In this document: in pieces, positions 3,179 through 19,010 of the stretch
How positions within the stretch are numbered: position 1 is the stretch's first letter
Layout: the number at the start of each line of letters is the position of its first letter
Assembly (NCBI RefSeq): GCF_033097485.1
Contig: NZ_AP028634.1
Span: 1,665,126-1,729,125, forward strand
Origin: Pyrofollis japonicus
GTDB taxonomy: Archaea > Thermoproteota > Thermoprotei_A > Sulfolobales > Pyrodictiaceae
Reading direction: 5' to 3'
Length of the DNA stretch: 64,000 nucleotides
Program-made: the position numbers and the translations under genes
Notes under the pieces: model-generated
Databases searched by the model: none
What the model was told of the DNA's origin: nothing
The model's input: only the letters and a program-made list of their open reading frames with translations

Positions 3179-4194
3179 TGACTTTCAACTACATATCTGA
3201 GAATAGGAATGACCAGCAACTACTATTCTCTTGGAGGGCAGCATACTCCTTGAATAGGATTGATTCTGAGCCTATAATTAAGCCTGAAACTAAGGAGGAG
3301 AAAAAGAAGAAAGAAGCCCTCTTCAAGCTCGCAGACAAGTTCCGAGAAGCTGCACGGGAGAGAAGAAAGTACCTGCGCGAAGAGGGCTTCAAGGTTGTTG
3401 TAACCGGTAAGGGTGGAGCAGGAAAGACGACAACTGCGGCCCTCCTTGCTCGGATTCTTGCACGCCGAGGCTACAAGGTCTTAGCCATTGATGAGGACCC
3501 GCAGATAAACTTACCCAACGCGCTCGGCCTGCCAAAGGAGGTAGCCGACAAGATTGTTCCGCTGAGCCGGAACGTGGACTACATAGAGGAGAAGACTGGT
3601 GCACGGCCTGGCGAAGAGTGGGGTGTCTTTCTAATAGTTAACCCGGACGTTAGCGATGTGATTGAGCGATTTGGGGTAAAGGGGCCCGACGGCGTAACGA
3701 TACTGGTCATGGGTACTGTTGTGCAGGCTGCCACTGGGTGCCTCTGCCCTGAGAACGCCTTGCTAGCAGCGGTTATGGACTACCTCGTCCTCCGAAAAGG
3801 CGAAGTAGTTATCATGGATACTCAGGCTGGCCTTGAGCACTTCGGCAGAGCAATAGCAAAGGGCTTCAAGCAGAGCATAGTGATAAGTGAGCCGACGCAT
3901 AACAGTATGCAGGTAGCTGCCCACGCAATGAGGCTGTCCCACGAGCTGGGTATACCCTACATACACCTGGTTCTGAACAAGGTTCGTAGCGAGAAGGAAG
4001 TCGAAAAGGCAATGAAGCTTGCAAAGGAGTTTGGTGCACCGGAGCCAACAAGCGTAGTATTAATACCCTATGACCCGACGGTGTTGGAGTACGAGCCTAA
4101 TGTGGGCCCACTACTCGACATGAACCCCAAGCCTCCTATAGTTAAGGCGGTCGAGGAGCTAGCCGATATCGTTGAAAAGTATGGGAACCTTTAA
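3178..4194 (+). CDS. cooC: CooC-type nickel-insertion ATPase for CO dehydrogenase
   Basis: 338 residues, MinD/Mrp-like P-loop ATPase of the CooC family, which supplies nickel to the C-cluster of CO dehydrogenase. Seen: deviant Walker A GKGGAGKTT at residues 77-85, IDEDP after the next strand, and the family-specific CLC motif (Cys187, Cys189), which in CooC dimers binds the metal ion; the DTQAGLEHF stretch is the switch II region. An N-terminal extension of about 70 mostly charged residues precedes the core. The listed TTG start at 3178 overlaps an inverted repeat; TTG 3250, 11 bases after GGAGGG, is an attractive alternative. The target enzyme CooS is encoded at 14213-16183 on the other strand. 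A T-rich stretch at 4231-4239 may terminate it. Confidence 0.85.
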   Translation: MTFNYISENRNDQQLLFSWRAAYSLNRIDSEPIIKPETKEEKKKKEALFKLADKFREAARERRKYLREEGFKVVVTGKGGAGKTTTAALLARILARRGYKVLAIDEDPQINLPNALGLPKEVADKIVPLSRNVDYIEEKTGARPGEEWGVFLIVNPDVSDVIERFGVKGPDGVTILVMGTVVQAATGCLCPENALLAAVMDYLVLRKGEVVIMDTQAGLEHFGRAIAKGFKQSIVISEPTHNSMQVAAHAMRLSHELGIPYIHLVLNKVRSEKEVEKAMKLAKEFGAPEPTSVVLIPYDPTVLEYEPNVGPLLDMNPKPPIVKAVEELADIVEKYGNL

Positions 4195-4278: not shown

Positions 4279-4911
4279 GTGCGTCGTGTGCAAGATACCG
4301 AGAAACTGGTACCATTCGATAAGCTTCGGGAAAGGTGTGACCCTGCATGTATTACTAGGGTTAATGCATCGCTGAAAATGATTGAGGCCTTTAGGGCCTT
4401 CTTCGAGTCGCTAGCGTATTACGAGATTCCCAGCTTCTTTGACAGGATAGTGCCACGTGAGACCGCATTCTACATGATAGCCGAGATGATGGCCCGTGCC
4501 ACGGAGAGGGCGTTCCCAATACTGCTCCATATAATGGAGGAGTTGCATGGGAGACCTATTCCCTACTCCACTGCGAAAGGCCTTGATAGGCTACTTATAC
4601 ATAACCACTGTCATACAAAGATGGCAGAGATACTTGGCTACCCTGTAGTAGTGTTCCACGCCTCTAAGGAGAATAACAAGATCGTTTTCCGTACCTCGAG
4701 GTGCCCCTTCGAGAAGGAGAAGAGGGGGCGCCCCCTTATCTGCGCGGTGTGTCTCGGCGTTATACTTGGCTCGACGAGGTTCTTGCTAGAGAATCGCCCA
4801 GTCTACCTCGTGAGGACGCGCAAGGAGCTCAGCTCTATTCCTCCCGGGGCCATAGTTATTCAGCAGACTCGTCGAAGCAGGGGATGCCGTATAGAGGTGT
4901 TTGAGAAGTGA
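4279..4911 (+). CDS. V4R-like Cys/His protein, paralogue B, beside cooC
   Basis: 210 residues, related to the protein at 2466-3029. Shared features: helical N-terminal half, HxxCH (here HNHCH, His108 to His112), CPF (Cys142), a hydrophobic helix that here contains CxxC (Cys155, Cys158), a PPGA turn and a terminal GCRI strand (Cys203). Two more cysteines (20, 24) occur at the N-terminus. The C-terminal third has the pattern of V4R sensor domains. The stop codon overlaps the GTG of the following regulator gene (GTGA), so the two are almost certainly co-translated, pointing to a joint sensory role. With a TATA box at 4256-4263, the GTG at 4288 is an equally likely start. Function unknown; CO, nickel or redox sensing is inference. 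Confidence 0.6.
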   Translation: MRRVQDTEKLVPFDKLRERCDPACITRVNASLKMIEAFRAFFESLAYYEIPSFFDRIVPRETAFYMIAEMMARATERAFPILLHIMEELHGRPIPYSTAKGLDRLLIHNHCHTKMAEILGYPVVVFHASKENNKIVFRTSRCPFEKEKRGRPLICAVCLGVILGSTRFLLENRPVYLVRTRKELSSIPPGAIVIQQTRRSRGCRIEVFEK

Positions 4912-5324
4912 GCTTCAGGGAAGACGACTTTCACGAGGACAAGCTTATGGCTCCCTGTGAGCAGGCGGTACGCGACATTATACCCGCTATTAAGGCCGCC
5001 ATAGCCGTCCTACTCAAAGAGAAGCATGGCTACAGTATTACTCGAATAGCCCGGATACTAGGCGTGACCCCGACTGCTGCGCAGAACTATCTTAATGGTA
5101 AGCGCGGCGGAGCCTACCTTCACCTCCTACTAACCATACCGGAGCTCCGAGGCGAGGTCGAGGAGGCGGCAGAGGCGATAAACCTGCTCAGGGAGCGGGG
5201 GTATAGTGTGAGGGCGGCTTCTTTCCTTCTATGCAGGCTTTGCCGCGACATAAGGTACTATGTGGAAAAGAATAAGCTGGACTGCGGCCCAGTCAACACT
5301 GGAACACATTCGCGCTCTAGGTGA
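4908..5324 (+). CDS. HTH transcriptional regulator with three conserved-type cysteines
   Basis: 138 residues. Residues 41-67 form a clear helix-turn-helix (SITRIARILGVTPTAAQNYL) of the archaeal XRE-like COG2522 type. Cysteines flank it: Cys17 near the N-terminus, CRLC at 109-112 and Cys126. In this family a Cys pair after the DNA-binding domain suggests an Fe-S cluster or metal as signal. The GTG start overlaps the previous stop, so it forms a two-gene unit with V4R-like paralogue B. Its 3' end overlaps by 8 bases the end of the convergent nuoM gene. The obvious targets are the divergent cooC region and the cooF promoter, where inverted repeats are present; this is inference. Confidence 0.65.
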   Translation: MSFREDDFHEDKLMAPCEQAVRDIIPAIKAAIAVLLKEKHGYSITRIARILGVTPTAAQNYLNGKRGGAYLHLLLTIPELRGEVEEAAEAINLLRERGYSVRAASFLLCRLCRDIRYYVEKNKLDCGPVNTGTHSRSR

Positions 5325-6624
5325 AGGGCTCCACCATAATCGGGGCAACTCCTGTAACCACTAGTATGACTAGCGCTGCTACTATGCCGGCGAGCACGCG
5401 TAGCTCTACCCTGCTACTAGTGCCTAGCTCCGCGAGAGCCTTGTAGAGGATCCACGAGGCTGCGCTTATATTCAGCAGGCTCGAAGTCACTGCGAGTACA
5501 AGGCTCAGCGTACCGGCCTCGAAGAGCACGCTTAGCGCTAGCACTTCTGCTCCGAAGAATACTAGCCCTGGCAAGGGTAGGAGCCCTATAGCGGTGAACG
5601 CTACCAGCCTGCCATCGAGGCTGCTGGCTCCCCAAGAGGTGCTTATCACCGGTATTAGTGCAAACGTGTGAGCAATAGCGTATAGTGTTGCCGCGTTGGC
5701 TACCCTGTAGGGCTCTGTAGGGGTAAACATTGCTGCAGCGATGAGGCTCATATGTGCTACGCTTAGATATGCCACGGCGGAGGGAAAATCGTTTACAGCT
5801 ATGTGGCGATGGGCTACTAGGAGCGCGTAGAGTGCACCGATAAGAGCTATAGTGATGACTAGTTGTGAGCCTCCTAGTAGCCCGTATAGGCTCAACAAGG
5901 CCAGGCCGTAAAGCCCCATCTTCGTCATAATCACCGAGGATGCTGCGACAATCGGTGGATTCTCAGCATATAGTCGCGGGACCCATGAGTGGAAGGGAAA
6001 CACCGCACCCTTTATCATAAAAGCCAACACTAGAAGGGCTAGTACAAGGAGCCTCGTTTCTCCCCCCAGCTGTGCTAGGTCGCAGAGAGCATCGCTTCCT
6101 AGGCGGCTCAGGGCGAGCATTGAGGCTGCTGCCAAGAGTATGCCAGCAACCTGCGTATAGGCTAGGAATAGGAGTGCTTGTTCCACACGGCCCCTTCTCC
6201 TAGCCATGTAGTATAGTGGGAGCACTGTGGTTTCCCAGAAAATCAGCATCCATACAAGGTCCCCTGACGAGAAGAACCCTATTAGGCCTGCAACGATTAT
6301 CATTAATGCTGCATAGTCTATCCCATCATCTCTACTGCTCGTCAATACTGCTACTAGTGCACCCAGCGCCGCTACCAGTGAAAACACTGAGGAAAGCTTG
6401 GTGAAAGAAACTCTCAGCAACGGGATAAAGGGTGAAACACTGATACCGGTCCCAGCCCCCTTGGCACCGAGCACTCCTACGAGTAGCGCTACCAGGGAGA
6501 GCGCTATCACTGATACCGCTCTAGCATGCCTTCTGTAAACAGCACTGATTAGAGCAGATGCCAAGAGCACGGCGTAGACCAGGCCATATAGAGCCACATA
6601 CACGTACCCACCCATCTTCTTCAC
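5317..6624 (-). CDS. nuoM: Complex I antiporter-like subunit, NuoM type
   Basis: 435 residues, about 13-14 membrane helices, Mrp-antiporter-like. The key charged residues of an ion-pumping subunit are visible: Glu in WMLIFWETTVLPLYYM (helix 5), Lys in FMIKGAVFPFHSWVPRLY (helix 7) and Lys in SVIMTKMGLYGL (helix 8). FPFHSWVP is typical of NuoM. It is the last gene of the CO operon, starting 4 bases inside the end of nuoN. The order L-N-M differs from the usual L-M-N. It should translocate protons or sodium when electrons pass from CooF to quinone. Some shortening compared with the roughly 500-residue bacterial NuoM is evident. Confidence 0.85.
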   Translation of the reverse strand: MKKMGGYVYVALYGLVYAVLLASALISAVYRRHARAVSVIALSLVALLVGVLGAKGAGTGISVSPFIPLLRVSFTKLSSVFSLVAALGALVAVLTSSRDDGIDYAALMIIVAGLIGFFSSGDLVWMLIFWETTVLPLYYMARRRGRVEQALLFLAYTQVAGILLAAASMLALSRLGSDALCDLAQLGGETRLLVLALLVLAFMIKGAVFPFHSWVPRLYAENPPIVAASSVIMTKMGLYGLALLSLYGLLGGSQLVITIALIGALYALLVAHRHIAVNDFPSAVAYLSVAHMSLIAAAMFTPTEPYRVANAATLYAIAHTFALIPVISTSWGASSLDGRLVAFTAIGLLPLPGLVFFGAEVLALSVLFEAGTLSLVLAVTSSLLNISAASWILYKALAELGTSSRVELRVLAGIVAALVILVVTGVAPIMVEPFT

Positions 6625-7823
6625 CCCATGGGCGCGAATGGGAACAATGCGATGAGCATTATCGAGGCAACTGTCGAGACGAACAGTGCCTGCCTAGACG
6701 GATACCCGGCCGAGCGGATCATAAGCAGGGTCTCATAGTAGAAGTAGAAAAGCAGTGGAGAAGAGACAAGGAGGGCTCCAAGAGCTGCTATCATCCTTAG
6801 CATGCTATGGCTGCTCGCAAGAAGTACGAGGATCTTAGCCAGGAATGAGCCAGCCGGAGGTATACCCACCAGGCCTATTAGGAGCGCTGCGAACACAAGG
6901 TCTACTCCAAGCCCCCGTCGCTGACTCCCTGGAGCAGCCTCGGCAGAGTATATCAGGGCTATGAGGCCCGCCTCTCCTAGAACGTAGCAGGCCAAATAGT
7001 ACGATAGAATACTGGGCCCGAGCCCGGCGAGTGGTACGAGGAAGAGGAGTAGGGATAGGTGAGCTATTGAGCCGTAAGCTAGGCTCTTTCTCGGATGCCT
7101 CGGGTATGAGGCGCCTACAAGGCTAGCCCATATGGCGGCGAGAATAGCTACAATGTATAGTGAGGCATATATAGCTGAATACGAGTGGCCATTGCCATGC
7201 ACTGCGCTGACCAGCACGTATGCTACGGGTATCTTTGGCGCAGTGAAAGCTGCTAGAATACTGGGCAACGAAGCCTTGTATACTACATCAACACCCCATA
7301 GGTGGAAGGGCGCTATGGCAAGCTCCAATAGCGCTCCAATAACCACCAGGAGGTACGAGTATGGATTATTGCCTCCAAAGAGGCCAAGTGCTATAAATAC
7401 CACTGCAACCGAGCTCGCAACAAAGAACTCTAGTGCAGCCTCGTAGCCCTTACTGCTTTCCCCGAGCGCTATTGCAGCATACGATGCAGCCACGCTAGCC
7501 TCTAGCCCGAGAATAAAGAGAGCGAGGCTATGGCCTAGCCCTATCTGAGCAATAAGTGCGCCAGCAGCTATTGCTCCAGCGAGACTAGTAGTGGCTGGGT
7601 CTCCGAGAATCGCTGCCAGTGTTGGGCCTAGGAGTATCGTGTAGAGCAGTAGTGCCTTGTAGCCCTCTACAGGCACGGCGTAGAGTATTGTTGCCAGCCA
7701 AACGGATATGAGGGAGAGAGAGCCCAGTACGAGGGCGATCTCATGGTAGCGTTTGAGGCCGATAGCTGTGGCGGAAAGGAGTATTGCTAGTCCTGCTCCA
7801 AGATAGACTGCCCCCAGGCTCAT
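6621..7823 (-). CDS. nuoN: Complex I antiporter-like subunit, NuoN type
   Basis: 400 residues, entirely hydrophobic, about 12-13 helices. The segment LELAIAPFHLWGVDVVYKAS with the following APKIPVAYVLV is the NuoN pattern (PFHxWxPDVYxGAP, then a Lys-containing helix). Glu in LFILGLEASVAASY corresponds to the helix-5 glutamate. It follows nuoL with a gap of about 20 bases and overlaps nuoM by 4, so it is part of the same transcript. The sequence is more diverged than nuoL or nuoM, with the DVY loop kept but the usual Gly-Ala-Pro turn lost, so the assignment N versus M rests on that loop and on neighbours. Confidence 0.8.
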   Translation of the reverse strand: MSLGAVYLGAGLAILLSATAIGLKRYHEIALVLGSLSLISVWLATILYAVPVEGYKALLLYTILLGPTLAAILGDPATTSLAGAIAAGALIAQIGLGHSLALFILGLEASVAASYAAIALGESSKGYEAALEFFVASSVAVVFIALGLFGGNNPYSYLLVVIGALLELAIAPFHLWGVDVVYKASLPSILAAFTAPKIPVAYVLVSAVHGNGHSYSAIYASLYIVAILAAIWASLVGASYPRHPRKSLAYGSIAHLSLLLFLVPLAGLGPSILSYYLACYVLGEAGLIALIYSAEAAPGSQRRGLGVDLVFAALLIGLVGIPPAGSFLAKILVLLASSHSMLRMIAALGALLVSSPLLFYFYYETLLMIRSAGYPSRQALFVSTVASIMLIALFPFAPMG

Positions 7824-7842
7824 CTTCCTACACCTCTCATGC

Positions 7843-9603
7843 CTAACCCATTGGTACCATGAACGCGACTATGACTATGAGGGCGAAGACGCTAAAACCT
7901 AGGAGAAGCATGAACTGTATACCTTCTTCACGGATCTCGTCGGATCTGCTAAGCACTGGCGAGGCCGACGAGAGAGCTAGGTGAGATTGTATCAGCTTCT
8001 CGTCGGCCGTGCTAAGCTTATATGAGGAGCCGAGGATAGGGAGTGCTATCAGGTTTATGTACGTATAGTAGGCTGCTTTCTCGAGATAAGCTAGCGGCGA
8101 AACCGCTGCCTCCAATACCTTTGCCGAGGCACTGGCCGGCCTAGAACCATATATCAGTGCTGAAAAGAGGAAGCCCAGTAGCCCCAGGGCTGACGAAACG
8201 ATAACACCAATGTTACTGAGCCCGGTGATCTCCAAGCCCATAGTATACCTGTATACGAGTACCGAGCCCGGTATGAGCACCATGAAGGCCGCATAGACTG
8301 CTTTCTCCCACGGCTCCTCTCTCACAAGCTTCGCCAGCTGGCTCCTCTCCTCTCCGAGAAATGCTAGCCCAAGCCATCTACCGATATAGATTCCTGCAAG
8401 CAGGCTATCGGCGAGCAAAACGTACTCGACGGCTTTGCCAGCCCCGCTTTCCACGGCTAGTGTGTGGCTAAGCCACGACCCATAGTAGGGCAATCCTATC
8501 TGGGCGAGAGCAGCCATCACGGCAACAACGTAGGCTAGTGGCATGCGTCTCCGAAGCCCGCCCATAGCCTCGAGGCTCGTTGTCCCTAGGTAGTGTATTG
8601 CTGGCGCTATAGCTAGGAACAACGCGGCCTTGAACCACGCGTGTACGAAGAGGTGCGCAAAACTCGGGATAGGGCTAGGAAGTGCTGCGAGCAAGAACAT
8701 TATGCCTAGATTGCTTATAGTGCTATACGCTAGTACTCGCTTTGAATCACTCTCTCTTATCGCCAATAATGCGGCGTAGAGGGCTGTGAAAGCACCCAGG
8801 TACAGCAGTGCTTCAGGGAACGAGTCCTCCGCCACTATGGCTGAATGGATTCTCTCCAACAAGTATGCTCCAGCAGCCACCATTGTCGCTGAGTGGAGGA
8901 GCGCTGAAACCGTCGTAGGAGCCTCCATTGCCTCTAGGAGCCAGATGTGGAGAGGAAACTGCGCGGACTTAGTGGCTGCTGCAAACACTATGAGCGCGAC
9001 CACTATGGCTGGCAGGCTCTGGGCAGGAATACCGGCTGGGGCCCCATGGATAATTGAATAGACGAGTGCAACTACTAGGCCAAGATCCCCCGCCCCGGTT
9101 ATGAGGAGAGCGAGTCTGGCAGCTCTGCGGGCCCGCGGCTTCTCATACCAGTAGCCTATGAGTATGAACGAAGAGAATCCTAGGGCTACCCAGAAGAAGA
9201 TGAGCGTGAAGAGGTTGTGAGAGAACGCTACTCCTATCATGCTTGCTTCGAACAGGGCTAGTGCTGCATAGTATCTGCGAAAGCCCTTATCTCCCCTCAT
9301 ATAGTCCTTCGAGAACAATATTATCAGGAACGTTATCACGGATGTCAACAAGGCCATTGTAGCCGAGAACTCGTCAACAATGAAGGAGTAGCGTAGCTCC
9401 TCCCCACCTACTACCGCGAACAAGCCCATGTCAGCAGAGATACGTGTCTTAGACACAGCAATAACCAGCGTAGTGATGAGGGCTATGAGCGAGGACGCCG
9501 TGAGTGCTAGCCATGAGTGCTCCTCCCTCTTGCCTAGCAGGGCTATAGGTATCGATGCGTATAGTGCTAGTACACCTACGAGCGCCAAGCCTATGGGGCT
9601 CAT
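7843..9603 (-). CDS. nuoL: Complex I antiporter-like subunit, NuoL type
   Basis: 586 residues. The family signature is clear: SFILIGYWYEKPRARRAARL, then TGAGDLG, then ATKSAQFPLHIWLLEAMEAP and TTVSALLHSATMVAAGAYL. The Lys in ATKSAQFP and His in ALLHSATMV are the conserved pumping residues. The C-terminal 150 residues include an amphipathic stretch before a final helix, consistent with the lateral helix that spans NuoM and NuoN in complex I. The ATG overlaps the end of nuoK by four bases (ATGA), indicating translational coupling. It is the distal pump module of the CO-linked complex. Confidence 0.9.
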   Translation of the reverse strand: MSPIGLALVGVLALYASIPIALLGKREEHSWLALTASSLIALITTLVIAVSKTRISADMGLFAVVGGEELRYSFIVDEFSATMALLTSVITFLIILFSKDYMRGDKGFRRYYAALALFEASMIGVAFSHNLFTLIFFWVALGFSSFILIGYWYEKPRARRAARLALLITGAGDLGLVVALVYSIIHGAPAGIPAQSLPAIVVALIVFAAATKSAQFPLHIWLLEAMEAPTTVSALLHSATMVAAGAYLLERIHSAIVAEDSFPEALLYLGAFTALYAALLAIRESDSKRVLAYSTISNLGIMFLLAALPSPIPSFAHLFVHAWFKAALFLAIAPAIHYLGTTSLEAMGGLRRRMPLAYVVAVMAALAQIGLPYYGSWLSHTLAVESGAGKAVEYVLLADSLLAGIYIGRWLGLAFLGEERSQLAKLVREEPWEKAVYAAFMVLIPGSVLVYRYTMGLEITGLSNIGVIVSSALGLLGFLFSALIYGSRPASASAKVLEAAVSPLAYLEKAAYYTYINLIALPILGSSYKLSTADEKLIQSHLALSSASPVLSRSDEIREEGIQFMLLLGFSVFALIVIVAFMVPMG

Positions 9604-9890
9604 TTTCTACCACCTTTCCTTGGAGCTATTAGCCCAGTCTTGCGATGACCATGATAAACAATGACTAGGACAAGGCCCATGATCTCCTCTATAGCTGAGA
9701 GAATCATCACAATATAGGGCAACTTTGTCTCGCCAGGGAGGAGGGTGGAGTAAAGCATTAGCCCCGAGGTCATTAACAGGAAGTAGACTATTAGCTTGAC
9801 TAGATGCTTCACTGTGAGGAGGCCGTATATTGCTACCCCTATTATTATGCCCGCTGTTACCGCGTAGACCGCGTGAATCATTCTGCCCAC
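9600..9890 (-). CDS. nuoK: Complex I subunit NuoK
   Basis: 96 residues, three membrane helices, the right size for NuoK/MrpC (about 100 residues). The first helix begins VYAVTAGIIIGVAIYGLL; helix 2 has LIVYFLLMTSGLMLYS and helix 3 the conserved acidic pattern SAIEEIMGLVLVIVYH, with two glutamates in the middle of the membrane that belong to the proton path. It overlaps nuoJ upstream by 13 bases and nuoL downstream by 4. The C-terminus is short and basic, facing the cytoplasm. Confidence 0.85.
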   Translation of the reverse strand: MGRMIHAVYAVTAGIIIGVAIYGLLTVKHLVKLIVYFLLMTSGLMLYSTLLPGETKLPYIVMILSAIEEIMGLVLVIVYHGHRKTGLIAPRKGGRK

Positions 9891-10327
9891 CTTCGTGCTA
9901 GTAGATAGAGTCCAGCCAGTAGGGCGACGAGCATGATGAGCCCTGCTACAAGGGCTTCTTCTTCCGAGAAAAATACGGGCTTGGAGAACTGCTTGGCGTC
10001 GCTAAGCGAACAGTATATGGCCCAGGCTATGAGTCCTGCTGGAAGCAGGGCTGCAAGATATTCCCGAGGAGACGCCTTTGGCTCTGCAGCTGGCTCGACA
10101 ATGCTGGCAGCCAGTAGTATTAGGATTGCGAGACCTCCGACAGAGAGCATGAAGTAGGCTGCAGCTAGGCCTAAGCCCCATGCCCAGTAGAGAAGCACGC
10201 TTACAAGCGTGAGCACGTAGACGAGTAGGAGAACAGCCTTAGCAATCTCCCTAACATAGACTATGCCAAGCACGCCGGCCAACAATAGGCCGGCGACAAT
10301 GCTGACCGCTACCCCTGGTACCGCCAC
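9878..10327 (-). CDS. nuoJ: Complex I subunit NuoJ
   Basis: 149 residues, five predicted membrane helices in the order typical of NuoJ, including the third helix AAYFMLSVGGLAILILLAAS, which corresponds to the helix carrying a pi-bulge in complex I. Length agrees with archaeal and Fpo-type NuoJ (about 160). A charged loop (EPAAEPKASPRE) separates helices 3 and 4. The start overlaps the nuoI end by 19 bases and the end overlaps nuoK by 13, so expression is coupled. Sequence conservation of NuoJ is low everywhere; position between I and K is a main argument. Confidence 0.75.
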   Translation of the reverse strand: MAVPGVAVSIVAGLLLAGVLGIVYVREIAKAVLLLVYVLTLVSVLLYWAWGLGLAAAYFMLSVGGLAILILLAASIVEPAAEPKASPREYLAALLPAGLIAWAIYCSLSDAKQFSKPVFFSEEEALVAGLIMLVALLAGLYLLARRWAE

Positions 10328-10725
10328 CTTGTCTCACCCCGCTCCTTCTTCTCAGTCAACTCCTTGCTATGGTTAGGGAGGATAACTATGTCCGGGCTAT
10401 CCGAGACCAAGGCGATGATGGAGGAGAAGTCCAGTGCCGAGGTTGGGCAGACTTCTACGCAGAGCCCGCAAGCCATGCACATGTTTGCATGGAATACTGG
10501 TACCTCGCGGACTGAGCCGTTTATCTCGAAAGGTCTAAGCTCTATAACCTTGTTCGGGCATATGTCTCTACATGCTCCACAACTTATACAGCTCTCCGGG
10601 TGAGCAAGGTAGACAAAGCCGCGCAGCTGCTCCACATGGTCCCGTGGCAGCTCTTCCTCCGGGTAGCGTAGGGTCTCCGTAGGGCCAAGTGTGTCTCTAA
10701 GCATTCTCCTCAAGGGCTTCAACAC
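10309..10725 (-). CDS. nuoI: Complex I subunit NuoI, 2x[4Fe-4S] ferredoxin-like
   Basis: 138 residues with two full cluster motifs, CISCGACRDICPNKV and CMACGLCVEVCPTSA. NuoI carries clusters N6a and N6b, which pass electrons from the input module to NuoB. In this locus the input module NuoEFG is absent, so NuoI is the natural docking point for CooF or another ferredoxin. The N-terminal 35 residues contain the amphipathic piece TETLRYPEEELPRDHVEQLRG in a form that lies on the membrane in complex I. It follows nuoH by six bases. Confidence 0.9.
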   Translation of the reverse strand: MLKPLRRMLRDTLGPTETLRYPEEELPRDHVEQLRGFVYLAHPESCISCGACRDICPNKVIELRPFEINGSVREVPVFHANMCMACGLCVEVCPTSALDFSSIIALVSDSPDIVILPNHSKELTEKKERGETRWRYQG

Positions 10726-10731
10726 GGCAGA

Positions 10732-11694
10732 TCACCCAATCAAGGCGTAGATGAGGGCTAGGACAAAGTTGGCATAAGCCAGTGGAACCCACAGTTTCCA
10801 GCCCCTGAGCAGGGCTCCTCGGAGGCTGTAACGCGGATAAGATGCGACAATGTAGACTATGAGCAAGGCTAAGAGGAATGCCTTCACGAAGAGCCATGTC
10901 CCGTGCGGTAGTGGGGGGTAGCCCGAGTCGCCGCCGAGGTATAGGCTAGCAAGCAGGGTCATGAGTGCGAAGCCTTCCATGCGCTTGGCTAGGAATAGTG
11001 CAAGGAAACGGGGCCCGGTGTACTCTAGCCCCCATCCACCTACTACCTCGGTAGGGGCTTCGGGGATATCGAATGGCACTATTTCTAGCTCTGCGAGTAT
11101 TCCTACGAGTCCTGTTACAAAGCCTATTGGCATTAGTATTGCGTACCATATGCCGTGTATGCCGCGTGATATGTCTGAGATGTTGCTGCTGCGTGAAGCG
11201 ATTGCAGGCGCTAGTAGGCTCAGGGCTAGGACTATGTCGTAGCTAAGCATTTGTGCAAGGGCTCTATATGAGCCCAGAAAGGCGTACTTGCTTGAAACAT
11301 ACCACGTGGAGACTATGAGTACGACTATGTCGAGTGATAGCAGTAAGAGCACCCATATGAGCGCGTTGCTTAGCTCCTCGATCCCCTTAACGAGGTACGG
11401 GATTGGGGTAGCTGTGACTATTGCTAGGCTAAGCCCTAGTAGCAGGAAAGGTGAGATGCCATAGAGTATTCTCATGTATTTTGGCTCCATATCTGGAACT
11501 ATGTCCTCTTTGACCATAAACTTGAGTATGTCTGCGAATACCTGGAAGAAGCCCGATGGACCTACGTATTTGGGGCCTATTCTCCAAGATACGCGTGCCA
11601 TTAGCTTGCGCATCGTGTATACACAGAGGTATATGAAGAGTATTGACAGTGCTAGGCCTAGCTGTGATAATTCAAGATAAGGTGTAATATTCAT
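10732..11694 (-). CDS. nuoH: Complex I subunit NuoH (membrane docking subunit)
   Basis: 320 residues, eight or more membrane helices. Conserved NuoH features are present: RIGPKYVGPSGFFQVFADILK in loop 1 (compare GPNRxGPxGxLQxxADxxK), the acidic patch ELEIVPFDIPEAPTEVVGG, and EYTGPRFLALFLAKRMEGF. These surround the quinone entry channel and link the site to the pumps. Stop of nuoD and ATG of nuoH overlap (ATGA). The strong conservation of the quinone-cavity residues argues that this enzyme reduces a quinone and is not a hydrogenase. Confidence 0.9.
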   Translation of the reverse strand: MNITPYLELSQLGLALSILFIYLCVYTMRKLMARVSWRIGPKYVGPSGFFQVFADILKFMVKEDIVPDMEPKYMRILYGISPFLLLGLSLAIVTATPIPYLVKGIEELSNALIWVLLLLSLDIVVLIVSTWYVSSKYAFLGSYRALAQMLSYDIVLALSLLAPAIASRSSNISDISRGIHGIWYAILMPIGFVTGLVGILAELEIVPFDIPEAPTEVVGGWGLEYTGPRFLALFLAKRMEGFALMTLLASLYLGGDSGYPPLPHGTWLFVKAFLLALLIVYIVASYPRYSLRGALLRGWKLWVPLAYANFVLALIYALIG

Positions 11695-12860
11695 CTCTCA
11701 GTCCCCCCTATGCACATGTCCATAGAGTTTATGAACGCGATCGCATCGGATATGGTCATGCCTTTGATTTTCTCGGCTATTAGGTATATCATTTGGATAC
11801 ACGGATTGTTTACCTTGACCCTATAGGGAGTGCTCCCTTTCTTGCTGAAGCCGCCGGTAGAGACTATGAGAAACTGGAACCAGCCTCTCGAGCCCTCAAC
11901 GATGGAGTATGAGTATCCCCGGCGCAGACTTATCACCGGCTGATCAATGCCAAGGATTCTCCCATAGGGGAGAGTATCGAGAAGGTCTTCAACGATTCTT
12001 ATCGATTCTTCGATCTCCTTTATGCGGACAAGTACACGGTCATAGCTGTCCCCGTGCTTTCCAAGGGCTATATCGACTCCCACGGCTTCGTAGGGCTCGA
12101 GATACGGGTCCCTAGCGCGGAGGTCAAGGGGGACGCCGCTTGCACGGAGAACTGGGCCCGTTATCCCATATTTCATGAGTTCTTCTGGGCCTAGTACCCC
12201 GTTGCCTCTGGTTCGTTCCTCGAATATGCTGCTTGACAAGTAGAGGTCATAGTATCTCTTTATTCTCTTTCTTAGCTCGCGGAGATTTCTCTTTGCCTCG
12301 TTTATCCAGGAAGGCTTTGCGTCTCTTGCTACTCCGCCAACCCTTACATAGTTGTAGGTTATTCTGTGCCCGGCCAGTTTGTCTAAGAGGTTGATCGCAA
12401 GGTCGCGTTCACGAAATGCTAGCACCGGTGCGAGCATTAGGCCGAGGTCGTGGCCGTATGTTGCTAGGAATAGGAAGTGGCTAGCTATTCTGTTTAGCTC
12501 AGCTGCTATTGCTCGAAGCCACTCCGCTCTACGGGGAACAAGGTCTCTGACGCCGAGCAGGTTCTCGAGAGCAAGTACATAGGATAATTGCCAGTTAACA
12601 TTATCCATGAAGCAGACACGCTCTGCGAGTATGAGGCCTTGTTGTGGATTTCTCTTCTCGAAGAGCTTCTCAAGGCCTCTATGAATATACCCTGTTAGAG
12701 GCTCAGCATCAACGATGATTTCTCCCCGAAGCCTTACTCTGAACCCCCATGGCCCATGCATTGCGGGGTGCTGGGGCCCCATGCTTAGGTAGATTCCGTC
12801 TTCCTCGTCGTAGAGGAATAGTGTCGGTGGAGCCTCGTGCGTGACCCTGGGCTCACTCAT
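11691..12860 (-). CDS. nuoD: Complex I subunit NuoD with half-preserved [NiFe] cysteine motifs
   Basis: 389 residues, the 49-kDa-type subunit that with NuoH forms the quinone site. MGPQHPAMHG at 27-36 is the quinone-binding loop of complex I. Unusually, the places of the two [NiFe]-hydrogenase CxxC motifs are half kept: LAERVCFMD has Cys83 but Asp86 in place of the second Cys, and SMDMCIGGTER has Cys383 but Gly386 in place of the last Cys. In hydrogenases the second Cys of each pair bridges Ni and Fe, so a NiFe site cannot form. This looks like an evolutionary intermediate between group 4 hydrogenases and complex I. It overlaps nuoC and nuoH by four bases each. Confidence 0.9.
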   Translation of the reverse strand: MSEPRVTHEAPPTLFLYDEEDGIYLSMGPQHPAMHGPWGFRVRLRGEIIVDAEPLTGYIHRGLEKLFEKRNPQQGLILAERVCFMDNVNWQLSYVLALENLLGVRDLVPRRAEWLRAIAAELNRIASHFLFLATYGHDLGLMLAPVLAFRERDLAINLLDKLAGHRITYNYVRVGGVARDAKPSWINEAKRNLRELRKRIKRYYDLYLSSSIFEERTRGNGVLGPEELMKYGITGPVLRASGVPLDLRARDPYLEPYEAVGVDIALGKHGDSYDRVLVRIKEIEESIRIVEDLLDTLPYGRILGIDQPVISLRRGYSYSIVEGSRGWFQFLIVSTGGFSKKGSTPYRVKVNNPCIQMIYLIAEKIKGMTISDAIAFINSMDMCIGGTER

Positions 12861-13291
12861 CGCCCCCAGCCCCCAATCGGTGTCTCTTGTAGCTCGTACT
12901 CTTTGCGGAGTGGGTGCCCGAGTTCTTCTGGTGTGAAGTGGCGGCGAAGCCTAGGGTTGCCGCGGAAGACTATGCCAAACATCTCGTAGGCTTCGGCCTC
13001 GTAGAGGTATGCTCCAGGATAGAGGTCAACAATGCTATCCAGCTCCTCGTCTTCGGGAAAAATAACAGATATCATTAATGCTCCTTGCTCGAGGCTATAG
13101 AGTAAAACAATGACCTCGAATAATCCTCTCCAATGGATGGCTGAGAGCGAGACGAACATGTAGCCATTCTCTGAGAGAATCTCAATCACTTTATGATAAT
13201 AGTCTGGGTGCACGCGCAGCATAGGTATACCGCTGGCATCGTAGCCTCGTTCCACAATCGCCTGCTCGAGAATCCTCGGCGTCTCACTCAA
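12857..13291 (-). CDS. nuoC: Complex I subunit NuoC (30-kDa type)
   Basis: 144 residues. The C-terminal part has the family signature YPGAYLYEAEAYEMFGIVF followed by RHFTPEE (compare WxxAxWxEREVYDxFGIxFxGHPxLRRIL). The N-terminal half is the usual alpha/beta docking domain. NuoC stabilises the NuoB-NuoD-NuoI arm. Length agrees with archaeal forms, which lack the long bacterial fusion to NuoD. It starts two bases after nuoB ends and overlaps nuoD by four bases. Confidence 0.85.
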   Translation of the reverse strand: MSETPRILEQAIVERGYDASGIPMLRVHPDYYHKVIEILSENGYMFVSLSAIHWRGLFEVIVLLYSLEQGALMISVIFPEDEELDSIVDLYPGAYLYEAEAYEMFGIVFRGNPRLRRHFTPEELGHPLRKEYELQETPIGGWGR

Positions 13292-13293
13292 TG

Positions 13294-13803
13294 CTACTTC
13301 ACCTCTTTGCCGTAGATCTTCTTCTGTAGGAGCCGGATCGCTTCAACGACTGCTTCTGCACGGACAGGACAACCAGGCACATAAACGTCGACAGGGACAA
13401 TCTCGTCAGCTCTCTTAACAGAGCTATAGGAATCGTGGTATGGGCCGCCACCCATTGAGCACGCTCCAACAGCTATGACGTATTTCGGCTCCGGCATCTG
13501 CTCATAGATTCTCCTAATAACTTCGGCCACCTTGGCGTTGATAAGCCCAGTTATTACTAGTACATCAGCCCGCCTCGGCGACTCAGCCATCATCGCGCCG
13601 AAGCGCTCGAGGTCGAAACGGGTAGTGAAGGCCTCCATTAGCTCAAGAGCGCAACAGCCAGTGCCGAAGACGAGTACCCATAGGCTTCTGCTAACTGCCC
13701 ACTTAACCACCTTGTTGGCCTGGGGCCTAGAGGCCTCCTCGTCTTCGGGTCTGCGGAGCCTCTTACGCGGTATCGGGAGCAAGTAACGCGGCTTCTGAGC
13801 CAA
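13294..13803 (-). CDS. nuoB: Complex I subunit NuoB, terminal [4Fe-4S] cluster N2
   Basis: 169 residues. All four ligands of cluster N2 are present: adjacent Cys50-Cys51 in GTGCCALELMEA, Cys115 in AVGACSMGGGPYHDSY and Cys145 in YVPGCPVRAEA. The tandem Cys-Cys is characteristic of complex I and related membrane hydrogenases. NuoB hands electrons to quinone in the NuoD-NuoH cavity. A purine-rich GATAGGTGATG lies just upstream of the TTG start at 13803, supporting that start. The basic N-terminus (RKRLRRPE) is typical for archaeal members. Confidence 0.92.
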   Translation of the reverse strand: MAQKPRYLLPIPRKRLRRPEDEEASRPQANKVVKWAVSRSLWVLVFGTGCCALELMEAFTTRFDLERFGAMMAESPRRADVLVITGLINAKVAEVIRRIYEQMPEPKYVIAVGACSMGGGPYHDSYSSVKRADEIVPVDVYVPGCPVRAEAVVEAIRLLQKKIYGKEVK

Positions 13804-13832
13804 GCATTCATCACCTATCTCGGAGCTGATTA

Positions 13833-14180
13833 TCAGCTTACGAGCCTAGCTAATAGTGCCACAAAGAGCCCAAAGACGATGGGGAGGGAGAAGGCAAGCA
13901 AGGCGACGAGTACCTCGTTACCTAGCCCATAGTATAGGCTGGCTAGTACATAAGCGGAGAAAACATCGAAAGCAACATAGAGGACTATGAACGGGAAGTA
14001 TTGCATCGCGAAGTAGCGTAAGCGTGAGGGAAGAGGCTTAACACCAGACTCATAGACTAGTGTCTTATCGCCAACCCGCCTGGGGGGAGTGGCAAGCCTA
14101 CCTATAGCTAGAAATATGAGTCCGAGCACGAAGCCAATGGTAAAAGAGGTTAGAAAAACAAATGGGGGGTTAAGGCTCAA
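13833..14180 (-). CDS. nuoA: Complex I subunit NuoA
   Basis: 115 residues, three membrane helices. The loop YESGVKPLPSRLRYFAMQYF corresponds to the conserved YECGxxPxxxxxxxFxxxFY of NuoA, and the next helix ends in the acidic FDV motif; the usual second glutamate after FDVE is Phe here. It begins with TTG at 14180, 32 bases after the end of cooS, so CO dehydrogenase and complex I genes share a transcript. This tight junction is the main reason to treat the two enzymes as one system. Confidence 0.8.
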   Translation of the reverse strand: MSLNPPFVFLTSFTIGFVLGLIFLAIGRLATPPRRVGDKTLVYESGVKPLPSRLRYFAMQYFPFIVLYVAFDVFSAYVLASLYYGLGNEVLVALLAFSLPIVFGLFVALLARLVS

Positions 14181-14212
14181 ACCACTACAACCTCGCTGGT
14201 AAAGAATATTGA

Positions 14213-16183
14213 TTAAATTCCTAGCTTCTTCCTCTTCTCGTCGATTATGTCGAGCATTATCTTGGCGGCCGCGTGGGGGTCTGTCTCTATTATTAGCCTT
14301 CCAAGCCCGTATTTCTCCGCCTCTTTGGTCAATATGTTTGTTACAACATCGCTTCCATATATCGGCGGAATTACTCCGATGTGTACATCCACGCCTGCTG
14401 CGAGGAAGTAGGTGCCTATGCTTACTGCTTTCTCGCTGTACGCCTCTGGGGCGCTGCCTACTACTGGGAGCTGGTTGATATCTACTCCTAATGCGTCTGC
14501 TACAGCCCCGAGGAGTACAAGTATCCTGCTATTGTCAACACAGCTACCCATATGTATTACTGGTGGGAGCTTGAGTTCCTCGTAGACTTTTCTTAGGCCT
14601 GGCCCAGCCATTTCTGCCGCTTTCTCTGGGATGAGTAGTCCTGCCTTGCCAGCTGCTGTAGCCCAGCACCCGGTACCGACAACTAGTACATCGTTCTTTA
14701 TGAGCTCCTTGGTTATTGTCACGTGACTATAGTCGTGCTTGACCTTCGGGTTGTTGCAGCCAACTATGCCCACTACTCCCCTTATGTCGCCCCTCTTGAC
14801 GGCCTCGAGGAATGGGTCGAGAGTGCCTCCGAGATGCTCGAGGAGCGCCTCGACGCTGAAACCTGCCCATAGCTCCATCTTCTCCTTGGGTATCATTACC
14901 CTCTCTTTTGCGCGGTTGGGGAAGTTCTCTACGGCTATTCTGACTATTTCTCTGGCTACTTCGTCTGCCTTTTCAGGGGTGAACTCAATGTAGACGGAGC
15001 CCGGTATCTTTGCTATCGGTATGGTTGTGATCAGCTTGGTGTGGTAGCAGCGCGCCACGTTAGCTAGCGCTGGCATGATGCATTGTACATCGACAACTGT
15101 TGCCTCTACAGCCCCGGTGACTATGGCTAGCTCCTGCTGCAACATGTTGCCTGCCATCGGCACGCCGAGGCGCTGCAACACCTCTATACCCGTACAGCAC
15201 ATTCCGACAACATTGATGCCTTTGGCTCCTAGGTCCTGGGCTAGCTTGACGAGCTCTGGGTCCCTTGCGGCCTCAACTACCTTGGCTGAAAGGAGCGGTA
15301 TGTGTCCGTGCACTATTATGTTTACATAGTCTTCTTTGAGTACTCCTAGGTTTACGACAGATTTTATCGGCTTCGGTGTGCCGAAGAGGACGTCGCTGAA
15401 CTCGGTAGCGACCATGCTGCCGCCCCAGCCATCGGCGATGGCTAGCTTGATGCCGCCGAGGAGCAAGTTGAGCGGGTCAGCGTCTACGCCCATGTGTGTG
15501 CGGTGCATGACCTCTGTTACTTCCCTATCATATGCTCTCGGCAAGACTCCTAGCTTCTTCCATAGCTCTAGTCTGCGCTTGGTAGCATAGGCCTTGACAA
15601 AGGCTGGTACTTCGTCGTCTTGTTTACCGAAGTCTCTCAGAGCTATCTCTGCAACGTCTTTTGCTATCTCCATTATATCCCTGCCTTCGGTGGGCACGCC
15701 GAGGCGCTGGGCTATCGCTATTAGTTTCTTCTCGTCAGCTATCTTGTAGTACTTGTTCTTACCTGTCGCTACCTCGTAGAGGACGAGGGCTATCTCTCTG
15801 CCATGGTCTATGTGGGCTGCTGCACCTCCAGCAATCATCCTAATGAAGTTCCTTGCAACTATTGTGTCAGCTGTTGCACCACAAACGCCTCTCTGCGGAC
15901 CATAGCCGAAGGGATCGATGCGGCACGGGCCCATGAGGCAGTTGCGGCAACAGATTCCTAGAAGGCCGAAGCCACACTGGGGCTGCTGCGCGAGTAGACG
16001 GTGCCAAGCAGTCTCGATTCCCTCTGCCTCAGCCTTCTCTAAGAGCTGCCTAACCGTAGGGTCTATAGATACTTCCTCCTTGTTTTCTATAGTTCTAGGT
16101 CTCTCGTACACGGGGCCCTTCATACGGAACTTCTTGTTACGAGGGGGCCACTTATCGTCTATCCAGGAGGATTTTTCACCCAT
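14213..16183 (-). CDS. cooS: Ni-containing CO dehydrogenase, monofunctional CooS type
   Basis: 656 residues; oxidises CO with water to CO2, two protons and two electrons. All cluster ligands are visible: D-cluster Cys70 and Cys78; B-cluster Cys79, Cys82, Cys87, Cys101; C-cluster HGH at 292-294, Cys330, Cys368, Cys476, Cys506 and Cys548 (HMGSCVDNSR). The catalytic acid-base residues also appear: His124/His127 (AAHIDHGRE) and Lys585 (SEKAVSIG). There is no acetyl-CoA synthase gene nearby, so this is the energy-conserving or CO-scavenging type. AGGTGA lies eight bases before the ATG. The gene sits between cooF and nuoA in one operon; cooC maturation protein is encoded 10 kb away on the opposite strand. 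Confidence 0.96.
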   Translation of the reverse strand: MGEKSSWIDDKWPPRNKKFRMKGPVYERPRTIENKEEVSIDPTVRQLLEKAEAEGIETAWHRLLAQQPQCGFGLLGICCRNCLMGPCRIDPFGYGPQRGVCGATADTIVARNFIRMIAGGAAAHIDHGREIALVLYEVATGKNKYYKIADEKKLIAIAQRLGVPTEGRDIMEIAKDVAEIALRDFGKQDDEVPAFVKAYATKRRLELWKKLGVLPRAYDREVTEVMHRTHMGVDADPLNLLLGGIKLAIADGWGGSMVATEFSDVLFGTPKPIKSVVNLGVLKEDYVNIIVHGHIPLLSAKVVEAARDPELVKLAQDLGAKGINVVGMCCTGIEVLQRLGVPMAGNMLQQELAIVTGAVEATVVDVQCIMPALANVARCYHTKLITTIPIAKIPGSVYIEFTPEKADEVAREIVRIAVENFPNRAKERVMIPKEKMELWAGFSVEALLEHLGGTLDPFLEAVKRGDIRGVVGIVGCNNPKVKHDYSHVTITKELIKNDVLVVGTGCWATAAGKAGLLIPEKAAEMAGPGLRKVYEELKLPPVIHMGSCVDNSRILVLLGAVADALGVDINQLPVVGSAPEAYSEKAVSIGTYFLAAGVDVHIGVIPPIYGSDVVTNILTKEAEKYGLGRLIIETDPHAAAKIMLDIIDEKRKKLGI

Positions 16184-16224
16184 ACATATTCACCTAAACC
16201 ATGAGGTGAAATGGGTCAAGAAAA

Positions 16225-16893
16225 CTACCACCATCTCGAACTTGGGGCTGGAACAACGTCTTTGTATGTGGCCTTCTTTGCCTTCGGCTTCGGCTCTATA
16301 AGCTGGCGTAGAGCCTCGTGGAACTTCTTGCCAACCTCTTGCTCCTTGCCGCGAATAATTTCGCCTAGGTCACCGAACCTTAGCGCACCCGTCGGGCAGG
16401 CCTCGACACACGCCGGTGGGAGGCCCTCACGGAGCCTATCCTCGCACATATCACACTTGATGGCAACACCGCGATCGTAATCAAACAGCATTGCTCCAAA
16501 TGGGCAAACCCTTACACACTGCTTACACCCTATACATGCAGCCTCGTCTATGCGGACGATCCCATCCGGGCCCTTGTATATCGCGCCAACCGGGCACACG
16601 TTCATACATGGAGGGTCTTCGCAGTGCATACACTGGACTACATAGGGGAGACCAACTCTCGGAATTGAGAGAACGCGTAGCCTCGGCATCGGCTTTGGCA
16701 CTTCATGTATTGCTTGGAATAGGTCTTTGCTCTGACTATGCTCTACTGCGCATGCTAGATAACAGTTCCAGCAACCAAGGCACCGGTTAGGATCATAGAA
16801 GACGACATAGTTTTTCGGCTTCGCGGGTTCAACAGGGAATGATAGCCTTGATAACGGTGGCCTGGGAAAAGATAGCTGTGGTTGCTGTGCCAC
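16225..16893 (-). CDS. cooF: CooF-type ferredoxin with four [4Fe-4S] motifs
   Basis: 222 residues, HycB/DmsB-like electron-transfer subunit that accepts electrons from CooS. Four cysteine motifs are seen in order: CLGCWNCYLAC, CMHCEDPPCMNVCP, CIGCKQCVRVCP and CDMCEDR with CVEACP, giving sites for four cubane clusters. The N-terminal 30 residues are proline-rich, and the C-terminal 45 are basic with a KPKAKKA stretch that could mediate binding to an acidic partner or membrane surface. No Tat signal is present, so the enzyme is cytoplasmic. It is the first gene of the operon; a TATA box stands about 20 bases before the GTG start. It probably delivers electrons to NuoI/NuoB. Confidence 0.92.
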   Translation of the reverse strand: MAQQPQLSFPRPPLSRLSFPVEPAKPKNYVVFYDPNRCLGCWNCYLACAVEHSQSKDLFQAIHEVPKPMPRLRVLSIPRVGLPYVVQCMHCEDPPCMNVCPVGAIYKGPDGIVRIDEAACIGCKQCVRVCPFGAMLFDYDRGVAIKCDMCEDRLREGLPPACVEACPTGALRFGDLGEIIRGKEQEVGKKFHEALRQLIEPKPKAKKATYKDVVPAPSSRWW

Positions 16894-17173: not shown

Positions 17174-18925
17174 TTGGGTAATAGAGGATTAGTCATTGCC
17201 ATAATAGTCCTCATAGCTCTCGCAATCATCGCCGTATATTATGCCTCAGAGTCTAAGCATGAAACGAGCCCCGAGAAGCCCGTTGGCTCTTCCGCGTGGA
17301 GCCCAAGCACTAAAACAGAGAGTGCCAGTAAGGAGTCTAGAACAGTACAGGGAGCCCTCAATTCTGCAACTGCAAGATCTGTTCCAACAAGTACGGCGAT
17401 AAGTAGCTATAAGGGACACAAGCAGGTCCTAGTTATCGCTCTAGGCGACTGGGGTGCCCCGAGCCCGTTCCTGTTTTATCCCCGCGGCCCAGGCTACGTC
17501 TTAACGAGCTTCATCTTCGACACCCTTGTGTGGAAGGACGAGAAGGGAGTGATCCCGTGGCTCGCGGAGAGCTGGGAGCACCCAGACCCGTATACTTGGA
17601 TATTCCATCTCCGCCGCGGCGTGCGCTGGCAGGATGGCGCCCCCTTCACTGCCGGGGACGTGGTGTTCACGTTCAAGTATCTAGCTAAGAGGCATTGGGC
17701 GTGGAAGAACATAGATCCCTCGCTCATAAGGGAGGTGAGCGCGCCGGATAACTATACAGTCGTGATAAAACTCTCTAAGCCGTACGCGTTCTTTCTAGAA
17801 GACTATGCTGCGACTATTTTCATACTGCCAGAGCATGTTTGGAGAAACGTTGACAACCCTTATGTGTTCCGCTCAAGGGAGGCGTTCATAGGCACGGGGC
17901 CCTACATGCTTAAGGAGTATGAGCCCGGCAAGGGCTACGTGTTTATAGCCAACCGGAACTTCTGGGGAGGAGAGCCCCGCTTCGACGAGATAGATGTCGT
18001 TGCAACGGGGTTTACTAATCCACAGGCCGAGGCCACTGCTCTTCTACGGGGAGAAGTAGATACAGCCGTGTTTATGGGCAAGGCTTACCGCGTCGTAAAG
18101 ATGCTCAAACAGAGGATGCCGGACATAAGGGTGCAGAGCGGGCCCATGTACTGGGTGCTCTTCCTAGGCTTCAACCTAGACAAGTGGCCCTACAATGAGA
18201 CAGTGTTCCGGAGGGCAGTTGCCTATGCCCTCAACCTCACAGAACTCATCATAAAGGCGACTGGTAGCCTAGAGGCAGCTGTGCCGGGCTCACCCGGCTA
18301 CATACCGCCATATAGTAGCTTCTACAACCCAGATATACCAAGGTACCCCTATAGCCCCGAGAAGGCTGAGAAGCTGCTGGACAGCCTAGGCCTAGTAGAC
18401 CGGGATGGTGATGGATGCCGAGACCTGCCGGGAGGAAAATCCTGGCACCCATTGCTAGTAACAACTACACAGTATACTCAGGAAGCAATACTTGTGAAGG
18501 AGATGCTGAAGCACATAGGAGTATGCATAGAGATTAAGACGGTCAAGTCGTATGGTCAGCTAGACAAGCTCGTAAAGCAGGGAGCATACGACCTAGAGAT
18601 AAATGGTCACGGGGCTACGGGGAACACCCCCACAGCGTTTGTGTGGTTCTTTAGCGGACGCTTCGGCGCTAGATGGGACAACCAGACGTATTGGGAGATA
18701 GTGAGGAAGATCGTGTCGGCGAAGAGCATTGAGGAGGCTTACGAGTATGCCAGGGAGGCCCAACGGGTTGTGGCTGAGCAGCTGCCACAGATAGCACTCT
18801 ATTACCCCAATATATTCGTGGTGACGAGGCCCGAGGCAATCATTAGCTGGTTCTTCACGGCCAGAGGCATAGATGGTGGCATACCACTACCATACAATAA
18901 GATCCTGCTAATAGAGACTAAGTAA
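17174..18925 (+). CDS. ABC transporter substrate-binding protein, family 5 (peptide/oligosaccharide)
   Basis: 583 residues. Residues 5-23 form an N-terminal membrane anchor (GLVIAIIVLIALAIIAVYY) followed by a Ser/Thr-rich linker of about 60 residues, the usual layout of crenarchaeal extracytoplasmic binding proteins. The body has family 5 marks: FDTLVWKDEKGVIPWLAESW, WIFHLRRGVRWQDGAPFTA, GTGPYMLKEYEPG and the AVAYALNLTELI helix. Ligands in this family are di- and oligopeptides, sugars or nickel; the sequence alone does not decide. The TTG start follows GAGAGGTG by nine bases. Downstream permease genes (19519-21197) should be its partners, with a tRNA-modification-like gene between. Confidence 0.85.
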   Translation: MGNRGLVIAIIVLIALAIIAVYYASESKHETSPEKPVGSSAWSPSTKTESASKESRTVQGALNSATARSVPTSTAISSYKGHKQVLVIALGDWGAPSPFLFYPRGPGYVLTSFIFDTLVWKDEKGVIPWLAESWEHPDPYTWIFHLRRGVRWQDGAPFTAGDVVFTFKYLAKRHWAWKNIDPSLIREVSAPDNYTVVIKLSKPYAFFLEDYAATIFILPEHVWRNVDNPYVFRSREAFIGTGPYMLKEYEPGKGYVFIANRNFWGGEPRFDEIDVVATGFTNPQAEATALLRGEVDTAVFMGKAYRVVKMLKQRMPDIRVQSGPMYWVLFLGFNLDKWPYNETVFRRAVAYALNLTELIIKATGSLEAAVPGSPGYIPPYSSFYNPDIPRYPYSPEKAEKLLDSLGLVDRDGDGCRDLPGGKSWHPLLVTTTQYTQEAILVKEMLKHIGVCIEIKTVKSYGQLDKLVKQGAYDLEINGHGATGNTPTAFVWFFSGRFGARWDNQTYWEIVRKIVSAKSIEEAYEYAREAQRVVAEQLPQIALYYPNIFVVTRPEAIISWFFTARGIDGGIPLPYNKILLIETK

Positions 18926-19010
18926 GCAGGGAGGGAACAACCGCAGACTTGCATACCCGGCTCTTTTTGGACAAAATAGGCATAGGCCTTGGCCAAAGAG
19001 AGCTGATAGC

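Follow-up and report, generated by a model that had tools for sequence, protein, structure and literature searches.

This study concerns a block of 13 genes in the archaeon Pyrofollis japonicus, a hyperthermophile of the Thermoproteota, that joins a nickel-containing carbon monoxide dehydrogenase (CODH) to the subunits of respiratory complex I. The genome is complete and consists of one contig of 2,005,174 bases; the stretch analyzed, referred to as the window, comprises 64,000 nucleotides (positions 1665126-1729125). The 13 genes lie head to tail on the minus strand, running from 16893 to 5317 in the order cooF-cooS-nuoABCDHIJKLNM. Open reading frame calls and family matches agree with an earlier note on this DNA, which placed cooF and cooS directly upstream of the nuo genes, and the coordinates confirm its 32-base gap between cooS and nuoA. 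All 11 subunits (NuoA, B, C, D, H, I, J, K, L, M, and N) are encoded in the block, NuoJ being recognized by its position and its homology to the sister copy only; nuoJ is 63% identical to the L257 copy. The earlier note also stated that the genes overlap after nuoA. This holds for most adjacent pairs from nuoC onward, which overlap by 4-19 bases, but not for nuoA-nuoB, nuoB-nuoC, nuoH-nuoI, and nuoL-nuoN, which are separated by 29, 2, 6, and 19 bases, respectively; the cooF-cooS gap is 41 bases. Terminator-like sites are absent from the cooF-cooS and cooS-nuoA gaps, and the region as a whole contains 10 as compared to 8.0 expected. We infer co-transcription from cooF to nuoM.

The input end of the block is well defined. 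CooS, the only copy in the genome, scores 752 bits against TIGR01702 (cut-off 478), and its closest solved relative is 6t7j, from Thermococcus. The motifs for clusters B, C, and D are all present (residues 70-88, 99-101, 293, 327, 366, 475, 503, and 546), with ligands assigned after Carboxydothermus CODH II. By these sequence features, CooS is a genuine, intact Ni-CO dehydrogenase, and CO oxidation is predicted. It is 97% identical to the CooS of a Pyrodictiaceae metagenome-assembled genome (MAG), JALVKZ010000228. CooF shares 39-51% identity with the CooF proteins of archaeal CODH loci, most of which are hydrogenase-linked. In the CooS tree, the window protein is sister to the hydrogenase-linked clade (support 92/75). 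It does not nest within that clade, a placement that would have proved that a hydrogenase was replaced. The C-terminal tail of CooF ends in a Trp motif (VSWR, VKWY, or SRWW) in the window and in L109, L180, L194, L031, and L038. This tail, common to hydrogenase-linked and complex I-linked CODHs, is a possible docking element.

The membrane module carries the hallmarks of complex I. NuoB scores 207 bits against NF005012 (cut-off 116) and has the adjacent Cys pair of the complex I type, a pair that at the proximal cluster marks complex I (PMC7684303); NuoI has eight cysteines. NuoD contains GPQHPAMHG, including the equivalent of the quinone-site residue His38, where hydrogenases in the same alignment read HPALHEP, and the hydrogenase Glu of HEP is gone. 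Its NiFe motifs are broken, RVCGIC having become RVCFMD and DPCISC having become DMCIGG, such that two of the four ancestral NiFe cysteines, the first of each motif, are retained. In a tree of 39 NuoD-like proteins, the window NuoD falls on the complex I side of a 100/100 branch, apart from the hydrogenases. NuoH groups with complex I (support 97/99), and the two trees are concordant. Motifs and phylogeny thus identify the membrane module as a complex I and not as a hydrogenase of group 4. The features of NuoA, NuoB, NuoD, and NuoH thus bear out the earlier note's statement that complex I stands in place of a hydrogenase beside CooS-CooF. Elsewhere in the phylum, two more groups that resemble complex I (L178/L214 and L212/L213) combine the first Cys of the former NiFe motifs with HPxTHG. 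Because these groups and the window NuoD mix a quinone-site HPxxHG with NiFe cysteines, the published scheme of stepwise loss from hydrogenase to complex I is, on these motifs, less tidy than stated.

The arrangement recurs in an independent MAG of the same genus (L028), which has the identical order of divergent transporter, cooF, cooS, and nuoA-B-C-D-H-I-J-K-L. Chance adjacency and mis-assembly are ruled out by this second occurrence. Between the two copies, synonymous differences reach 56-75% of sites and nonsynonymous differences 2-21%, and the ratio of nonsynonymous to synonymous rates (dN/dS) is approximately 0.02-0.13 where dS is estimable. As measured by these substitutions, the arrangement is old and under purifying selection. 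With synonymous sites near saturation, it is unlikely that the block was transferred recently between members of the genus. A third species (G001) has the end of nuoD followed by nuoH-I-J-K-L on a 3.3 kb contig. The absence of cooS from this genome says little because the contig breaks inside nuoD, the rest of which is also missing from the assembly. Neither cooS nor this nuoD occurs in G004, a 99% complete genome of the same genus, which carries a hydrogenase-type cluster.

A wider survey covered 80 CooS loci from public genomes and the 37 of 398 Thermoproteota genomes that have a true CooS; it was a sample, not an exhaustive search. A NuoD-like large subunit lies beside cooS in more than a dozen of the neighborhoods read. 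Two contigs end before the motif and were left out of the motif reading; every readable large subunit carries NiFe hydrogenase motifs, except those of the window and its sister. Among the readable neighborhoods of this sample, cooS beside a nonhydrogenase nuoD, a pairing of the kind that the earlier note proposed to search for, occurs only in the window and L028. As regards a possible donor of the nuo cluster, the nearest NuoD among the 398 Thermoproteota genomes is approximately 40% identical. The bacterial locus L036 combines cooS with a group 1 hydrogenase and with genes of the NADH module (NuoF/NuoE-like). Deep-branching CooS proteins of about 610-620 residues in other Thermoproteota (L203, L204, L207, L208, and L209) likewise have subunits of a NiFe group 4 hydrogenase as partners.

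Elsewhere, the genome encodes a second, ordinary 11-subunit complex I (L027, C1:697241-707766), which groups with those of other members of the order (L216-L218). The window NuoD and NuoH are both far from L027, indicating that the CODH-linked complex I is an extra, specialized, and divergent copy; derivation from the L027 complex I is ruled out by both trees. One gene of L027, nuoC (L027:8365-8958; C1:698364-698957), sits between nuoB and nuoD but reads from the opposite strand; the other genes of the cluster are co-oriented. No PF01512 match to NuoF was found genome-wide, NuoE and NuoG not having been searched separately. The earlier note goes too far in its premise that NuoEFG or FpoF is normally required by complex I: L027 is also without NuoF, and many anaerobes are known to have 11-subunit forms (PMC11238625, PMC6759336). 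The genome has no group 4 hydrogenase; its sole true NiFe hydrogenase is of the group 1 type, with a signal peptide and a cytochrome b, located 10.6 kb beyond the window. It also has no CdhC of acetyl-CoA synthase and no CdhA match, and the absence of CdhC rules out that the CODH is part of an acetyl-CoA synthase. Three molybdenum enzymes are encoded (PhsA-like, NapA-like, and formate dehydrogenase-like), two of them with NrfD membrane subunits; together with the group 1 hydrogenase, these are candidate respiratory partners.

We consider it probable that the 13 genes encode a CO:quinone oxidoreductase. Transfer of electrons from CO to quinone is the most economical reading, given the complex I identity of the membrane module, CooS-CooF as the sole operon-encoded donor, and a genome without NuoF, a group 4 hydrogenase, or acetyl-CoA synthase. 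In the proposed mechanism, CooS would oxidize CO to CO2 and pass electrons to CooF, from which they would travel through the two NuoI clusters to the N2 cluster of NuoB and reach a quinone whose binding site lies between NuoD, NuoB, and NuoH. Its reduction would drive ion translocation through the membrane arm, and the quinol would be reoxidized by NrfD-anchored reductases of the PhsA/Psr-like type. We infer that CooF docks on NuoI, that quinone is the acceptor, that ions are pumped, that electrons flow in this direction, and that CO is used for growth. These data suggest that the window species and at least one close relative respire CO through the membrane rather than making H2. A more specific version, in which the CODH docks directly on the 11-subunit complex I to form a physically integrated CO:quinone oxidoreductase, is advanced tentatively and is less probable than the function itself. 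It would make this complex both a respiratory enzyme of a new kind and a living intermediate between hydrogenase and complex I, with a NuoD that has the quinone His and two leftover NiFe cysteines and with partly discharged proton channels.

Several observations weigh against the CO:quinone oxidoreductase reading. The Tyr87 equivalent of NuoD is Phe in the window and its sister, and this position is also unconserved in the genome's other complex I. The earlier note's assignment of quinone as the acceptor is consistent with the His38 equivalent and is weakened by this Phe. Four UbiA-family proteins are compatible with quinone synthesis but do not prove it, and cooS occurs together with this nuo block in two genomes only. 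The Thermococcus CODH is largely cytoplasmic, and transfer through ferredoxin is not excluded there (PMC4731540). The remaining points concern the proton path (residue equivalents in E. coli numbering). NuoL retains K229 and H254; its E144 is replaced by Val (Ala in the sister) and K399 by His. NuoK retains E72, and its E36 equivalent is lost, in the sister too. NuoN retains E133, with K217 replaced by Glu in one genome only. NuoM retains the equivalents of E144, K234, K265, and E407, and the NuoH E157 equivalent is Asp. In E. coli, the NuoL substitutions E144Q and K229A are reported to lower activity severely (PMC4938563), and E36K/E72K and K217N-E133N sit on the proposed coupling path (PMC13324432). 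Full pumping cannot be assumed because the NuoL E144, NuoK E36, and NuoN K217 equivalents are lost. Textbook proton pumping by this complex is doubtful on these replacements; for each pair of electrons, the complex probably translocates fewer ions than a standard complex I does. The earlier note's plain statement that the complex pumps ions is unsupported as written.

CooS-CooF could instead reduce a soluble ferredoxin pool, with both complex I copies drawing on ferredoxin of any source and the operon reflecting co-expression only. Both copies lack NuoF, ferredoxin-driven Fpo/Fqo is known or proposed (PMC4543118), and the Thermococcus CODH is loosely bound (PMC4731540). Against this, the operon holds a dedicated CooF and no small ferredoxin, a general complex I is already present in the genome, and in G004, the best assembled genome of the genus, the extra complex I is missing along with cooS. 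We regard this alternative as unlikely but as one to be taken seriously. It bears on the earlier note's description of CooS-CooF as a dedicated input: the pair is the sole operon-encoded electron donor, but "dedicated" goes further than the evidence, as CooF could feed soluble ferredoxin.

Sulfane sulfur or polysulfide might be reduced at the proximal cluster in the manner of MBS, coupling CO oxidation to sulfur reduction with no quinone involved. Other members of the family respire sulfur. NuoD keeps the same two cysteines as MbsL, although these are noncatalytic in MbsL (PMC7684303). The adjacent Cys pair of NuoB and the His38 equivalent of NuoD are complex I traits not found in MBS, NuoD and NuoH fall on the complex I side of their trees, and NuoA, NuoJ, and NuoK are present, which leaves this route very improbable. 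Operation in reverse, with quinol and membrane potential reducing CO2 to CO for carbon fixation, is harder still to credit; complex I and Ni-CODH can in principle run in either direction, but the genome lacks CdhC/acetyl-CoA synthase and has no CdhA match, and CO therefore has no known anabolic use. A CO-dependent hydrogenase with an overlooked NiFe site is refuted at the sequence level and has a negligible chance of being correct, since each motif keeps its first Cys but has lost its second, the catalytic Glu is missing, and the NuoD and NuoH trees lead to complex I.

The CO:quinone oxidoreductase reading can be compared with several described systems. The trimodular Mrp-Mbh-Codh complex of Thermococcus onnurineus (PMC4731540) and the CODH/ECH systems of Carboxydothermus and Rhodospirillum likewise have a related CooS and CooF as input module, encoded in the same operon as a membrane machine related to complex I. 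They use a NiFe hydrogenase with Mrp, whereas here a quinone-type NuoD occurs with NuoA/J/K/L/N/M, no H2 is expected, and cooC lies apart in convergent orientation. The 11-subunit complexes I of Desulfitobacterium hafniense (PMC11238625) and Hydrothermarchaeota (PMC6759336) have the same 11 subunits and no NADH module, but their donor is unknown or shared, whereas here a CODH module is in the operon; in D. hafniense, CODH-CooF is a co-expressed candidate donor only (PMC11238625). In the Archaeoglobus fulgidus model, CO electrons are likewise proposed to reach menaquinone via the complex I homologue Fqo, but through ferredoxin/F420 and on the basis of transcript data, and CODH and Fqo are not described as one gene block (PMC4543118). 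The Nuo-annotated genes reported near Ni-CODH in PMC6344411 belong to NuoE/F/G-type orthologous groups (COGs) and so represent the NADH module, which this block lacks; L036 provides an example. NADH:quinone oxidoreductase-like genes near Ni-CODH are mentioned without detail in PMC13240472. MbsL of the MBS sulfane sulfur reductase keeps two of four NiFe cysteines, as does the window NuoD, but in MBS there is no counterpart of His38 or Tyr87, and the Cys pair of the proximal cluster is not arranged as in complex I (PMC7684303).

In the open-access literature, with subscription papers mostly not covered, we found no description of a CODH operon that includes this type of complex I. A 2026 survey reports, without detail, NADH:ubiquinone oxidoreductases near some CODHs, so the arrangement may have been seen before without being noticed. 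Passage of CO electrons to quinone via a complex I homologue has already been proposed; the hard-wiring in an operon appears to be new. The observation in the earlier note is thus confirmed, and its interpretation is partly supported and mostly plausible; the system itself is built from two known modules. If correct, the interpretation would give anaerobic CO oxidation by Ni-CODH a direct respiratory outlet to quinone. With potentials of -520 mV for CO/CO2 and -80 mV for menaquinone (PMC4543118), approximately 0.44 V is available, far above H2 production. A common donor of the 11-subunit complex I has been sought without success, and the complex was proposed to serve as a platform on which different partners dock (PMC11238625). 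What feeds it becomes a testable question here because one partner is encoded in the operon.

Table 1. Features of the block and its surroundings, in window positions.
Feature	Position	Strand	Remarks
cooF	16225-16893	-	ferredoxin-like subunit, 222 aa; 16 Cys, four [4Fe-4S] motifs
cooS	14213-16183	-	Ni-CO dehydrogenase catalytic subunit, 656 aa; TIGR01702
cooS-nuoA gap	14181-14212	-	32 bases; no terminator-like site
nuoA	13833-14180	-	PF00507; D79 equivalent retained
nuoB	13294-13803	-	N2 cluster subunit; NF005012; Cys 50, 51, 115, 145
nuoC	12857-13291	-	PF00329
nuoD	11691-12860	-	HPxMHG retained; NiFe motifs reduced to RVCFMD and DMCIGG
nuoH	10732-11694	-	PF00146; complex I clade in tree
nuoI	10309-10725	-	TIGR01971; 8 Cys, two [4Fe-4S]
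nuoJ	9878-10327	-	no family match; named from position and match to sister copy
nuoK	9600-9890	-	PF00420, weak match
nuoL	7843-9603	-	PF00361, NF005141
nuoN	6621-7823	-	short, 400 aa; TIGR01770, 50 bits, weak match
nuoM	5317-6624	-	TIGR01972, 93 bits
TATA-like element TATAAAA	17004-17010	-	upstream of cooF, within the TCTAGTATAAAA block kept in the sister MAG
cooC-like P-loop ATPase	3178-4194	+	PF01656; KGGAGKTT, CLC; for CODH maturation
MetOD1-domain protein	4279-4911	+	PF18546, barely over cut-off; possible sensor
helix-turn-helix protein	4908-5324	+	PF13384; start overlaps MetOD1 gene, end overlaps nuoM; possible regulator
divergent ABC transporter block	17174-21197	+	SBP_bac_5, TsaA-like, two permeases; peptide/nickel-type

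The surroundings of the block are listed in Table 1. Alignment of the upstream regions shows that the TCTAGTATAAAA block is common to the window and L028. At 16960, also upstream of cooF, lies the inverted repeat TTAACCGTGGTTAA; the sister does not keep it, and we therefore do not propose it as an operator. The substrate-binding protein (SBP) gene is divergent from cooF in L028 too. In another genome of the order (L202:964-4830), a block of SBP_bac_5, TsaA-like, and two permease genes also occurs near cooS-FNOR-cooC-hypB-hypA, which suggests that the transporter perhaps takes up nickel or a nickel chelate for CooS. The cooC-like protein is up to 59% identical to the cooC adjoining many cooS genes. 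It is flanked by the proteins at 2466-3029 and 4279-4911, which share a similar Cys/His pattern and may form a redox- or CO-responsive switch replacing CooA.

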